A stretch of 62,612 nucleotides of DNA from Methyloceanibacter sp. (GTDB lineage: Bacteria; Pseudomonadota; Alphaproteobacteria; Rhizobiales; Methyloligellaceae), in contig JASJEH010000003.1 in the NCBI GenBank assembly GCA_030064755.1, positions 1-62,612 of the forward strand. The letters run 5' to 3'. Both the position numbers and the translations under genes were made by a program. Of the stretch, positions 41,304 to 49,301 are shown in pieces. The notes under the pieces are model-generated. The model was not told the DNA's origin. It searched no databases and saw only the letters and a list, made by a program, of their open reading frames with translations. Within the stretch, counting starts at the first letter, position 1. The number at the start of each line of letters is the position of its first letter.

Positions 41304-42707
41304 ATGGCGGGCGACACCCAACCAGCGCAACAAGACGGCGAACCGACACTGCAAAGGTCAGTTGGACCTGTGCAAATGGCGCTGTACGGGCTTGGCAGTA
41401 TGCTGGGCGCAGGCATTTACGGCCTGATCGGGAAGGCAGCCGGCCAAGTCGGGAATGCTGTTTGGCTGGCTTTCCTCGTCGCGCTGGTCGCCGCGCTGCT
41501 GACGGCCTTGTCCTACGCTTCACTCGGTTCGCGCTACCCGCGCGCTGCCGGCGCCGCCTATGTCACCCAGCGCGCCTACGGGTTTCCTCTACTAAGCTTC
41601 ATGGTCGGTCTCGCACTGATCTGCTCCGGACTCACCTCTGTCGCCACGCAAAGCCGTGTGTTTGCCGCCAACTTGATCGAGCTTGTCGGTCTCGACGGAC
41701 TGCCGGTGGCTGGGGTGGCGCTGGGCTTCCTGCTGGTAATGAGCGGCATCGTTTTCCGCGGCATTCGCGAATCGATGTGGGTTAACGTGCTGTGCACCAT
41801 CGTCGAGGCTTCGGGCCTCATTCTCGTTGTAGCTGTTGGCGTCTCTTACTGGGGCACCGTCGACTATCTAGAGACGCCGGCGGCCCCCGGCGGTGACCTG
41901 ACGTTTCTGATTGTCATTCAGGGCGCTGTGCTCGCCTTCTTTGCCTTTATCGGCTTCGAGGATCTCTACAACGTCGCGGAGGAAGTCCGCGAGCCGCAGC
42001 GCACGATACCGATCGGCATCATCACAGCCATGGTACTTGCCGCTATCCTCTATGTCGCGGTGGCGATCACGGCGGTTTCCGTCGTGCCATGGCAGGAGTT
42101 GAGCGAGGCGCCGGGACCGATCACCGAGGTCGTGTCGCGCGCCGCACCCATCGTACCGCCAATCCTCTTCACCGGGATCACGCTTTTCGCCGTCGCGAAT
42201 ACGGGTCTCGTCAATTTCGTCACGGCCTCGCGCCTGCTCTACGGTATGGCGCGGCAGAATCTCTTGCCCGACCATCTCGGCAGAGTGCACCGGCACCGGC
42301 GGACGCCACATATCGCGATCCTGGTTTTGTTTTTGATCCTAGTGCCGCTCGCCCTGCTGGGCGCGATCGCCGAGCTGGCCGCCGCGTCGGTTCTCCTGTT
42401 GCTCACGGTATTCGCCGTGGTCAACGGTGCGCTTTTCATTCTGAAAGGACGGGCGGGCGAACCGCCCGGCCGGTTCGAGATTCCACGAATCATTCCCGCA
42501 CTAGGCTTCTTGGTGTGTCTCGGATTGATTGTCGTACGCGTCGCGGCCGGAGATTGGCGCGCGCCTGCCATCGCGGGCGGACTGCTGGTCGCCTGTTTCC
42601 TGCTCTACCTGCTGATGCGGCAGCTCGACCCCGAGGCTCTGAGTGAGATTGGTGAGGATTCAGCGGACGCCGTGGCTCAAGGTGACGGATCTACCAACCG
42701 CCTCTAA
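41304..42707 (+). CDS. APC-superfamily amino acid permease
   Basis: 467 residues from ATG 41304. About 12 membrane helices; the first ones carry the APC helix-1 motif GLGSMLGAGIYGLIGKAAGQVG and the later FFAFIGFEDLYNVAEEVREPQRTIP, typical of amino acid/polyamine antiporters or permeases. Substrate unknown. The hydrophilic N-terminus (MAGDTQPAQQDGEPT) is short. The stop overlaps the convergent L,D-transpeptidase gene by CTAA. Confidence 0.88.
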   Translation: MAGDTQPAQQDGEPTLQRSVGPVQMALYGLGSMLGAGIYGLIGKAAGQVGNAVWLAFLVALVAALLTALSYASLGSRYPRAAGAAYVTQRAYGFPLLSFMVGLALICSGLTSVATQSRVFAANLIELVGLDGLPVAGVALGFLLVMSGIVFRGIRESMWVNVLCTIVEASGLILVVAVGVSYWGTVDYLETPAAPGGDLTFLIVIQGAVLAFFAFIGFEDLYNVAEEVREPQRTIPIGIITAMVLAAILYVAVAITAVSVVPWQELSEAPGPITEVVSRAAPIVPPILFTGITLFAVANTGLVNFVTASRLLYGMARQNLLPDHLGRVHRHRRTPHIAILVLFLILVPLALLGAIAELAAASVLLLLTVFAVVNGALFILKGRAGEPPGRFEIPRIIPALGFLVCLGLIVVRVAAGDWRAPAIAGGLLVACFLLYLLMRQLDPEALSEIGEDSADAVAQGDGSTNRL

Positions 42708-44248
42708 GGGCTCGTCGTCGCAAGACTGCCGTTGATTGGCTTCCGTGGTGCTTCGGACGCGCCGTCAGCCGAAGGCGCAGCCGCTGGAAGATTGTCGAGC
42801 TTGTAGACATCGCCAAAGGTCTTCACTGCGCCGTCGTCGCCCACGACGGCCGTGAAGTAAGTCATATGCACCGGCATCGGTTTGTTCAGCTTGACCCGGC
42901 TTGTCTTGCCGCTGGCGATCTGCTGACGGACGGTCGCACTGCTTGAATCATTGGTCGCGGCCAAGATTCGCGCGGCCAGCTTGTCCGCGTTCTCAATACG
43001 CGGTTCCTTGGCGCCATCGGCGCGTGTATCGCGCGCGAACTTACCGCGCAGTGTCGTGTCTCGCATGAAGACCTTCTGGTCGTTCGGATAGAGGAACTGA
43101 ACCTTGCCCATAATATTGGTGCGGCCGGGTTTCTGAACAAAGGTGAGGCCAGACAGGTTGGTTTTCTTCCAGTCGATCGTCTTGGGATCGACCGTTTTGC
43201 CGCCGCGTTTCACCGTGATCCCGTACTGATCCAGAACGGCCGTATTGCCGGTCCCGCCGAAAAACGATCCGCTACCTCGAAGCTTCGGCAACACGTCTCG
43301 GCGGATCACCGAGGACGGAACGATCCGTTCCGGATTGAACACGATTTCCGTCATGTCCGCCGAAAGCACCGGCGTCGGCGATCCCGTCGCGCCAACGATA
43401 GCCTTCTCGGATTGGACCGTCTTACCGTCCTCAACCGCATGCAACATGAACTCTGGGATGTTGAGCCACACATAGGACGCCCCGAGTTGCTCTGGCATCC
43501 AACGCCACCGGTCCATGTTCCGGCGCAATAGCAGATCCTCGTTCTCGGACTTGGCGCTCTTGAGCGCCTTCCGTAACCGGACAAATTGGTCGTGCTTCGG
43601 GTGGAGGCCTTCGAGCACTGTATCGGGTGCGGACGACGTCGAGAGTTCCCTGAGAACGTCGGCCGGCGGCCGAACCGTCGGCGCGTGGCCGTAAATTGTA
43701 TTGATGCTCTTGGGCTCTGTTAGCCCCCCGCGTGCGGCACGGGCATATTTCAAAGCGGCGAGGCTCATCGCCAGCTCCGTGGTGGCCTGATCCTCTTCCG
43801 AGCCCGGCTTGTAGTCCTTCGGCGGTACTGGGAATGCCGTGGGGTCGAGCCCCCAATCGTCTGCTCCGGCAATCGTTTCCAGGAGAGCCTTTCCGCGCTC
43901 GGAAAAGCCCGCCGTGGTCAGCCAAAGTGCGGGGCTTGTCCGCGTCCGATAAAATTCCGTGAGCGCCGTGACATCGTCGGCGTTTTGTCCTTCCGCGAGA
44001 CTCGCTTTGTTGAGCTGCACCTTAATCGCATCGGCGATCATCAGTTCTTGCGGCGGAGGCTCAGGCGCTTCCTGGGCTTCTATGGGCATCTCGACAGTTC
44101 CGATGCCGGGATGATCGGGAATCTCGAGAGTGACGCTATCGTCAGCAAAGGACGAATACGGAAGAGATACCGTCAAAAGGCCGAGCAGTGTCACAAGGGC
44201 GAGGAGCCCTGGCCGTTTCAGGATCGCGATTGAACCAATCTTACGCAT
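42704..44248 (-). CDS. Exported L,D-transpeptidase homologue lacking catalytic Cys
   Basis: 514 residues from ATG 44248. A signal peptide (LLALVTLLGLLTVSLPYSSFA) is followed by a YcbB-like scaffold domain with ALTEFYRTRTSPALWLT, DWGLDPTAFP and NMDRWRWMPEQLGASYVWLNIPEF, then the YkuD domain (VGATGSPTPVL, TEIVFNPERIVPSS) ending HMTYFTAVVGDDGAVKTFGDVY. Where active enzymes have SHGCxR there is ADGAKEPR (about 410-417), and the protein has no Cys at all; the upstream HDTP His is also replaced (FMRDTT). It may be an inactive wall-binding or regulatory protein. Confidence 0.85.
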   Translation of the reverse strand: MRKIGSIAILKRPGLLALVTLLGLLTVSLPYSSFADDSVTLEIPDHPGIGTVEMPIEAQEAPEPPPQELMIADAIKVQLNKASLAEGQNADDVTALTEFYRTRTSPALWLTTAGFSERGKALLETIAGADDWGLDPTAFPVPPKDYKPGSEEDQATTELAMSLAALKYARAARGGLTEPKSINTIYGHAPTVRPPADVLRELSTSSAPDTVLEGLHPKHDQFVRLRKALKSAKSENEDLLLRRNMDRWRWMPEQLGASYVWLNIPEFMLHAVEDGKTVQSEKAIVGATGSPTPVLSADMTEIVFNPERIVPSSVIRRDVLPKLRGSGSFFGGTGNTAVLDQYGITVKRGGKTVDPKTIDWKKTNLSGLTFVQKPGRTNIMGKVQFLYPNDQKVFMRDTTLRGKFARDTRADGAKEPRIENADKLAARILAATNDSSSATVRQQIASGKTSRVKLNKPMPVHMTYFTAVVGDDGAVKTFGDVYKLDNLPAAAPSADGASEAPRKPINGSLATTSP

Positions 44249-44425: not shown

Positions 44426-44448
44426 GCTATACTCATGATGAGAATAGC
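44426..44448. promoter_or_regulatory. nadA upstream palindrome 1 (candidate NadQ operator)
   Basis: GCTATACTCA-TGA-TGAGAATAGC: 10-base arms with one mismatch. Same core (ATACTCA-N3-TGAG) as the perfect site at 44507-44527 and 80 bases upstream of it, centre to centre. Confidence 0.6.
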
Positions 44449-44506: not shown

Positions 44507-44527
44507 ATATACTCATATTGAGTATAT
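44507..44527. promoter_or_regulatory. nadA upstream palindrome 2 (candidate NadQ operator)
   Basis: ATATACTCA-TAT-TGAGTATAT: a perfect 9-bp inverted repeat with a 3-base spacer, ending 13 bases before the nadA ATG. Placed over the expected promoter of nadABC, it suits repression by a NAD-responsive regulator. Confidence 0.75.
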
Positions 44528-47329: not shown

Positions 47330-48208
47330 ATGAGTACCCTGGCACAGATTACGCCATTGCCGCGCAACCTCGTGGAGAACGCGGTGCGGATCGCGCTTGA
47401 AGAGGATCTCGGCCTCGCGGGCGATATCACCACCGACCCCATCATCCCGGCGGATGCGCGCGGGGCCGCGGCAATTGTGGTCCGCGAGCCCGCACGTATT
47501 GCAGGGCTTGATCTCGCAGAGACAGCATTCCACGCACTCGATCCGGATGCGATCTTTGAGCGCCTGGTGGATGACGGCATGACAGCCGAGGCTGGCACGA
47601 CCATCGCAAGGATCAGGGGGAGGACGCGAGCGCTGCTCACAGCCGAGCGGACAGCCTTGAACTTTCTTGGCCGCTTGTGTGGCATCGCGACCCTCACCGC
47701 CGCCTATGTCGCGGCGGTGAAAGGTACGCGCGCGAAGATCGCCTGCACGCGCAAGACGACACCCGGTCTACGTGGATTGGAGAAATACGCGGTGCGCTGC
47801 GGCGGCGGCCTCAACCATCGCTTCGGCCTCTATGACGCGGTGCTGGTCAAGGACAACCACATCGCCGCGGCAGGCGGGATCAAGGCGGCGCTGTCGCGTT
47901 TGCGCTCGCGCGCCGGACATATGGTCAAGATCGAGGTGGAAGTTGATACACTTGATCAGCTACGCGAGGTGCTGAACTACCCTATCGACGCGGTCTTGTT
48001 CGACAACATGGATATCCCGACGTTGAAAGAGGCTGTGGGGGTAGCGGATGGAAGAGTCCTGACGGAGGCGTCAGGCGGCGTCACATTGGAGACGGTAGCG
48101 GGAATCGCGCAAACGGGCGTCGACCTGATCTCAGTAGGAGCCCTTACTCACTCGCCCCGTAACCTAGACTCATCATTGGAGTGGGAGCTGCTGGGCTCGC
48201 TCCAGTGA
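47330..48208 (+). CDS. nadC: Nicotinate-nucleotide pyrophosphorylase (carboxylating)
   Basis: 292 residues from ATG 47330. Converts quinolinate and PRPP to nicotinate mononucleotide. Seen: [77 protein letters not shown] and the C-terminal [11 protein letters not shown]. The first residues are uncertain; an upstream start at 47315 is possible. The last 65 bases overlap the convergent SleB gene. Confidence 0.96.
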
Positions 48209-49301
48209 CGGTATCCACGGAGTCGCTGACGGCTTGGACCGCCCAGGCGAGCGAGGTTGTCGGCAAGTCGCCCGCGCCGTCTACACTGGCCACTGCGTCG
48301 GACTCGCCGTCAAGGGCCGCTTCGACCATGTAAGGCTGTTCGCCTCTTTTCTTGTAGAAGATGTGCCGGCCGATCTTGTCGATCCGATTCATGCGGTAGG
48401 ACCAGCGCGGACGCACGTAGTCCGCATGGTAGAACGTCGAGTAGCCAACTTCTGGCAGCCAGTGTTCGCCGGCCATGAAACTCTTGGCGAGTTTTTGAGA
48501 GTGCGCCCATTGGCCTTTGTCACGCGGGTTGTCGGAATGACCGTCACAGGTGAATGAGAACTGGCAGCCCTTCCGGTGCTGTCCTTGATAAACCACACCG
48601 CAAATCGTCTGCGGGAATTTCGGACTACGCACACGGTTCAAGATCACCTGCGATACAGCGATCTGACCCTTGAGCGGCTCGCCGCGTGCTTCGAAATAAA
48701 TGGCCGTCGCCAAGCAGTGGCGCTCACGCTCCTCGAATTCGGCCTGTGTCTCGCCCTTGTAACGGAACTTCAGGGCTTCCTTAGACGGGCGGTAGGCGAT
48801 GTCATACGGGTCGGGACGGAAGCCGTCGATCTCATAATCAGCATCGAAGAGCGCAGCATAGCCGGCCGTGGGCAGGACTGCCTTTCCGAGACTGTGCTGA
48901 TCGGACGGAGAGACGGAGACGCGTTTGAGCAGGCTTTCTTGTTTGCTTTCGGCCTTCTTGCTGCGGTACTCCGTCGAAAAGCCTGGGAGGCGAGGCAGCT
49001 TCACCAGGCTCGCCATGATCGATGCTTGGGCCGGCCGCGAAGCGGAAAGCGCAAAACGGTCGGCCCGAGGACCCTTGCCGTCTTCGTAGAACAGGCGCGA
49101 TGCCGCGGTCGAGACCTCGCGAGGAGCGGCGTCGTTTTCGGTCCGAACAGCGGTGGAAATAGTACCGGGAGCGGGCAGGAACAGCTCGACCTCGGTGCCG
49201 AATAGGCTGCCGTACGCGGCTGCGTAACCCACACCGATGCACGGGAGCGATACGAGCGCAGCGGCGGCGTACCACATCCGACGGAACGAGCGTCGGCCCA
49301 T
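48144..49301 (-). CDS. SleB/CwlJ-family cell wall hydrolase
   Basis: 385 residues. An N-terminal hydrophobic segment ([21 protein letters not shown]) anchors or exports it; a long variable region follows. The hydrolase_2 domain starts near [34 protein letters not shown] (catalytic Glu in YFEARGE), then [16 protein letters not shown] and STFYHADYV. It is a lytic-type muramidase for peptidoglycan, probably for growth or division rather than spores. A GGAGGG site precedes the ATG. The C-terminal 65 bases overlap nadC on the other strand. Confidence 0.9.

Follow-up and report, generated by a model that had tools for sequence, protein, structure and literature searches.

In the L,D-transpeptidase YcbB (LdtD) of Escherichia coli, Cys528 is described as the nucleophile, His509 as the base, and the backbone nitrogen of Tyr507 as part of the oxyanion hole, and exchange of the donor-site Trp425 for Ala as causing β-lactam sensitivity (PMC6478713). 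Members of the Hyphomicrobiales may possess many L,D-transpeptidases, reported as needed for fitness and polar growth, with 14 in Agrobacterium tumefaciens (PMC11527210).

Several systems show that YkuD proteins can act outside this chemistry or can persist without it. DpaA (YafK, LdtF) is a YkuD-fold protein diverted from transpeptidation (PMC10653827, PMC12729407). In Acinetobacter baumannii, catalytically dead C390S LdtJ is reported to still support growth and shape (PMC12548408). The second YkuD domain of Pseudomonas aeruginosa LdtPae1 reads QLGKIR, lacks the catalytic Cys, and is suggested by its authors to bind peptidoglycan (PMC10434034); among the papers listed in searches of the open-licence literature, no other published YkuD domain without Cys was met, and no stand-alone Cys-less L,D-transpeptidase was found. 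The window, the whole 62,612-nucleotide stretch of Methyloceanibacter sp. DNA analysed here, encodes such a stand-alone protein.

A Cys-less YcbB-type protein

The gene occupies 42704..44248 on the reverse strand and encodes 514 amino acids plus a stop, an assignment based on its translation and its relatives; the translated product has 0 Cys. Residues 1-36 (44141..44248, reverse strand) consist of a basic start, a hydrophobic core, and SSFA ahead of DD, and, judged by eye, resemble a signal peptide, from which the protein is presumably exported. It contains a Scaffold domain (PF20142, residues 95-229, 43562..43966, reverse strand, Pfam E 6.3e-25) and a YkuD domain (PF03734, residues 258-406, 43031..43477, reverse strand, E 4.1e-9), the latter also supported by a fold match and scoring 37.6 bits vs a cut-off of 23.4, with a match that stops at profile position 112 of 146. 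In alignment, residues 304-366 correspond to the capping region seen in cysteine-bearing paralogues, so that Pfam, PDB matches, and alignment all give the YcbB-type architecture of Scaffold plus YkuD with a capping insert. The four PDB sequence matches (6ntw, 7kgn, 7kgm, and 7aj9) are all YcbB-type enzymes. Unlike in YcbB and LdtA, no PF01471 peptidoglycan-binding domain was found between Scaffold and YkuD by Pfam at E up to 1; this domain is present in paralogues L001 and L007 and was not found in L010 or in the cysteine-bearing sister protein of UBA4118 (L047).

The AlphaFold models of the Cys-less protein (pLDDT 80.2, pTM 0.73) and of sister L047 (pLDDT 78.6, pTM 0.73) were built from the same 15 sequences. 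The best PDB matches of the Cys-less model are Vibrio cholerae LdtA (7aj9, 7ajz) and E. coli YcbB (6ntw), at Z 19.7-22.5 over 362-378 residues with rmsd 4.5-5.0 (Z 21.1 for 6ntw and 22.5 for 7aj9), and YcbB and LdtA are likewise best for the sister model (Z 20.4-24.7). Against Bacillus subtilis YkuD, the Cys-less model gives Z 13.5 over 105 residues with rmsd 2.0. Loop 401-410 has a mean pLDDT of 51, and two blocks over the equivalent loop of the sister have 83 and 85.

Alignment with YcbB-type proteins places VFMRDTT...RADGAKEPRI opposite VYMHDT...RA.SHGCVRV. With residues matched to YcbB by our own assignment from the 6ntw alignment and spacing, the counterparts of five YcbB and LdtA residues are replaced. 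E415 (43004..43006, reverse strand) stands for catalytic Cys528, leaving no Cys in an [S/T]XGC motif; R396 (43061..43063, reverse strand) stands for base His509; R308 (43325..43327, reverse strand) stands for Trp425, whose role is taken from the YcbB work (PMC6478713); the SHGC His is replaced (H413A); and Phe replaces oxyanion-hole Tyr507. Arg417, the groove Arg after the motif, is retained together with Scaffold, YkuD, and the fold, as in YcbB and LdtA. The sequence-only reading had reported a 514-residue protein without any Cys, an otherwise preserved YkuD domain, ADGAKEPR in place of the SHGCxR block, and Arg for the HDTP His, and had concluded that the known Cys mechanism cannot operate; each of these statements is borne out, the catalytic Cys being Glu415.

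DpaA, which uses a Cys, differs in being a hydrolase without the groove Arg that the Cys-less protein keeps. The LdtPae1 domain shares the loss of the catalytic Cys in a retained protein, but it follows, in one fusion protein, a domain that has the Cys motif, and its own motif carries Lys, whereas here the sole YkuD domain is affected and the residue is Glu or Asp.

The loss appears rare. Among the matches listed, [ST]xGCxR is kept in all 111 distinct YcbB-type proteins outside the genus, with no further Cys-less case, so this sample gives no sign that the type is widespread. This set comprises 87 proteins from order-sample loci (best 88 rows outside the genus, 61 genomes searched) and 24 from phylum-sample loci (80 genomes searched, 26 with a match, rows with loci used), after removal of 3 repeats and one own-genome row. 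Among the same listed matches, the matched stretch of 104/111 contains a single Cys, which explains why loss of the catalytic residue leaves the whole protein without Cys.

A single loss within Methyloceanibacter

The named relatives, which are M. methanicus (L045), M. marginalis (L048), UBA7697 (L046), and UBA4118 (L047), put the window beside Methyloceanibacter. At this locus the Cys-less form occurs in seven of 17 genus genomes (the window, L016, L017, L018, L019 = L045, L020 = L046, and L028 = L048), and a cysteine-bearing sister form with HDT and GHxCPR occurs in nine (L021-L027, L029, and L077); in genome G010 neither form was found in full. nadA and a permease gene flank all seven Cys-less loci. 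Among the nine sister loci, nadA adjoins in seven and the permease in five, and L077, a short piece, has neither. This common neighbourhood makes the Cys-less protein the positional counterpart of the cysteine-bearing sister. The two forms also share the same Pfam architecture and best PDB entries, with 44% identity to L047, and they differ in that the sisters, putative enzymes like the other cysteine-bearing relatives, retain the HDT His and a GHxCPR motif with Cys. In L017 (genome G018), the permease adjoining the gene is in two pieces. Just past nadABC, at 48147-49301 on the reverse strand and fourth gene from the pseudo-transpeptidase, lies a gene for a cell wall hydrolase (Hydrolase_2, PF07486).

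In a tree of 30 rows with the motif columns removed, the seven Cys-less copies form one clade (support 100/100) nested among the GHxC sisters. Six ORF pieces shorter than 250 aa and five split or partial rows were excluded from the counts. The Cys state and the Trp position each change once on this tree, and the Cys was lost a single time. Motifs across the groups form a series running from SHGC (paralogue group D) through GYGC, GHDC, or GHEC (group C) and GHxC (group B) to GQSE in M. marginalis and finally G[AD]K[ED], where the base His has disappeared as well. The GQSE copy retains the base His, Tyr, and Pro, a step weakened by the broken frame of that copy. Group C, a further YcbB-type paralogue group of the genus (L064, L071, L074, L076, and L079), has IGYGCVRM, in which Tyr takes the place of the motif His, and two residues are inserted after HDT; IGHDC or IGHEC occurs in other members.

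No Cys occurs across the columns of residues 38-514 in any of six members (the window and L016-L020); L016, L017, and L018 have one Cys each in the signal-like N-terminus. With the M. marginalis copy excluded, in which the base position is still His, position 396 is Arg in five of six members and Ser in one. Twenty-five positions were found at which the commonest residue of relatives, defined as present in ≥80% of 31 cysteine-bearing relatives (≤30 at gapped columns), is never kept in these six members, M. marginalis again being excluded. They include W308R, P376R, H391R/Q, Y394F, H396R/S, H413A/D, and C415E/D. Across all seven clade members, Arg occupies 308 in 7/7 and 376 in 6/7, and position 415 is acidic in 7/7 despite at least three Glu/Asp switches, which suggests that the charge there matters. 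A salt bridge between R396 and E415 in place of the His-Cys pair was considered as a guess from the homologous positions, and Ser396 in L020 tells against it.

An evolutionary path may be proposed from these patterns. The ancestor would have been a YcbB-type enzyme adjoining nadA that changed in place. Its motif would first have eroded from SHGC to GHxC, followed by loss of the Cys, the donor-site Trp, and the SHGC His, and then of the base His, an order that hangs on the one frame-broken intermediate in M. marginalis. The fold, Scaffold domain, capping insert, and groove Arg417 would have been preserved throughout, while the former catalytic centre would have acquired arginines and an ever-present acid.

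Purifying selection on the Cys-less protein

Five full-length open frames are found in the Cys-less clade (the window, L016, L017, L018, and L020), with identities of 64-95%. The M. methanicus copy is open only over residues 55-514, with its signal-like start in another frame, and in M. marginalis the gene falls into three frames. As nadA next to the latter is likewise split, assembly errors are possible there, and real decay and sequencing error are indistinguishable for the frame changes in these two species.

Among the six members remaining once the broken M. marginalis copy is set aside, NG86 dN/dS is 0.077-0.230 (15 pairs); the absolute values are rough because many dS exceed 1, and the least saturated pairs, at dS 0.19, 0.40, and 0.51, give 0.130, 0.094, and 0.077. 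NG86 was chosen because YN00 returned no value for 15 of 40 pairs in one comparison. Three groups of cysteine-bearing paralogues give 0.034-0.115 (10 pairs), 0.053-0.240 (15 pairs), and 0.145-0.305 (15 pairs), so the Cys-less values fall within the 0.034-0.305 of these 40 pairs, which makes simple decay unlikely. The neighbouring genes give 0.026-0.070 for nadA (15 pairs) and 0.089-0.114 for the permease (10 pairs, L017 being omitted for its permease in two pieces).

The protein is under purifying selection. In the Scaffold domain, 75/135 positions are invariant among six members. The possibility that constraint is focused on the former motif was rejected: relative to the whole protein, the motif stretch has a divergence of 1.04, higher than in any of the five cysteine-bearing groups compared (0.69-0.93; L077 left out of this comparison). 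The whole protein is constrained, and the former motif is no longer specially so. With its catalytic residues lost in a clade that has five full-length open frames, the protein is best read as a pseudo-transpeptidase that has probably lost catalysis and is retained in one branch of Methyloceanibacter and kin.

A probable non-catalytic role in the periplasm

A protein still under selection without its catalytic residues probably performs a non-enzymatic job in the envelope. The favoured reading, to which we assign a probability of roughly 0.6, is an exported pseudo-L,D-transpeptidase that arose in place beside nadA and would have a non-catalytic binding or scaffolding role in the periplasm. Its target would be either peptidoglycan or the cysteine-bearing L,D-transpeptidases and their partners. 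Precedents for this proposal are the second YkuD domain of LdtPae1 and the contribution of dead LdtJ, though LdtJ itself is active and has its Cys. The sequence-only reading had suggested peptidoglycan binding or regulation of an active enzyme, and had proposed looking for a Cys-less clade and for active paralogues. The lost mechanism, the intact and selected frame, the clade of seven genus members, and the paralogues (13 of 14 YkuD matches in the window's genome have the GC motif) uphold it in part, the two roles standing as proposals; simple substrate binding in the old site fares less well. Arg at the position of the donor-site Trp means that the old substrate site is altered, which speaks against a mere persistence of the original binding and, together with the missing PF01471 that two paralogues have, against plain peptidoglycan binding.

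The strongest alternative, possible although unlikely, is that the protein regulates active L,D-transpeptidases as a partner or decoy complexed with a paralogue through its Scaffold or capping domain. The plentiful cysteine-bearing paralogues and the conservation of the Scaffold domain are consistent with this role, as is the description of the YcbB scaffold domain as potentially important for partner interactions (PMC6478713), but no L,D-transpeptidase is among the eight neighbouring proteins scanned.

Somewhat more doubtful is a remodelling of the old catalytic centre into an Arg-rich ligand pocket (R308, R376, R/Q391, R396, and R417 with the obligate acid at 415), assuming that positions 376 and 391 line the pocket. 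The protein would then sense or receive anionic fragments of the cell wall in the periplasm, perhaps under the control of NadQ together with NAD synthesis. If true, a cross-linking enzyme would have turned into a receptor or sensor. Control by NadQ is considered because a second NadQ-like box on the gene's side is seen only in the Cys-less clade. The 292 bp between the gene and nadA, upstream of nadABC, contain both a palindrome that matches the NadQ consensus (PMC5343134) exactly, upstream of nadA at 44509..44525, and a second, towards the Cys-less gene at 44429..44445, that departs from it at 1 position; no other match with ≤2 mismatches occurs in the window. Two boxes are present in 6/6 Cys-less loci when M. 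marginalis is excluded, and a single box in 7/7 sister loci checked (L021-L027) and in M. marginalis (L028). The second box may offer a lead on regulation, but only a lead, since its association with the clade perhaps reflects a single phylogenetic event.

That the protein is still an enzyme with new chemistry, for example a peptide or glycan hydrolase using Glu/Asp415 as nucleophile or general acid/base, appears improbable. The invariably acidic position 415 with its Glu/Asp toggles and the recurrent Arg at 308 and 376 could be taken in its favour, but Asp and Glu rarely interchange as nucleophiles, and the base His and the SHGC His are gone. The motif is also less constrained than in the five cysteine-bearing groups, where a new active site should be tight, and its loop is modelled at low confidence. 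The oxyanion Tyr has become Phe, though the backbone-nitrogen contact described for YcbB may survive (PMC6478713). Nothing points to a working alternative nucleophile.

A decaying pseudogene caught early and open by chance is less probable again: the three-frame M. marginalis copy and the frame change ahead of residue 55 in M. methanicus would fit, but the five full-length open frames span ten pairs with dN/dS 0.077-0.230, and the split nadA in M. marginalis indicates that the breaks may be assembly errors. Removal of the Cys by sequencing or assembly error, which the sequence-only reading had named as one of two possible refutations, is conceivable for a fragmentary assembly of 157 contigs but is excluded for practical purposes, as the Cys is also absent from six other genus genomes, four with full-length open frames, two of these being single-contig (G004 and G009).

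A stand-alone pseudo-transpeptidase maintained by selection, for which other genus members carry a cysteine-bearing sister at this locus and M. marginalis may hold an intermediate, provides a natural test of non-catalytic roles in this family, and it cautions that a YkuD protein need not be a cross-linking enzyme.
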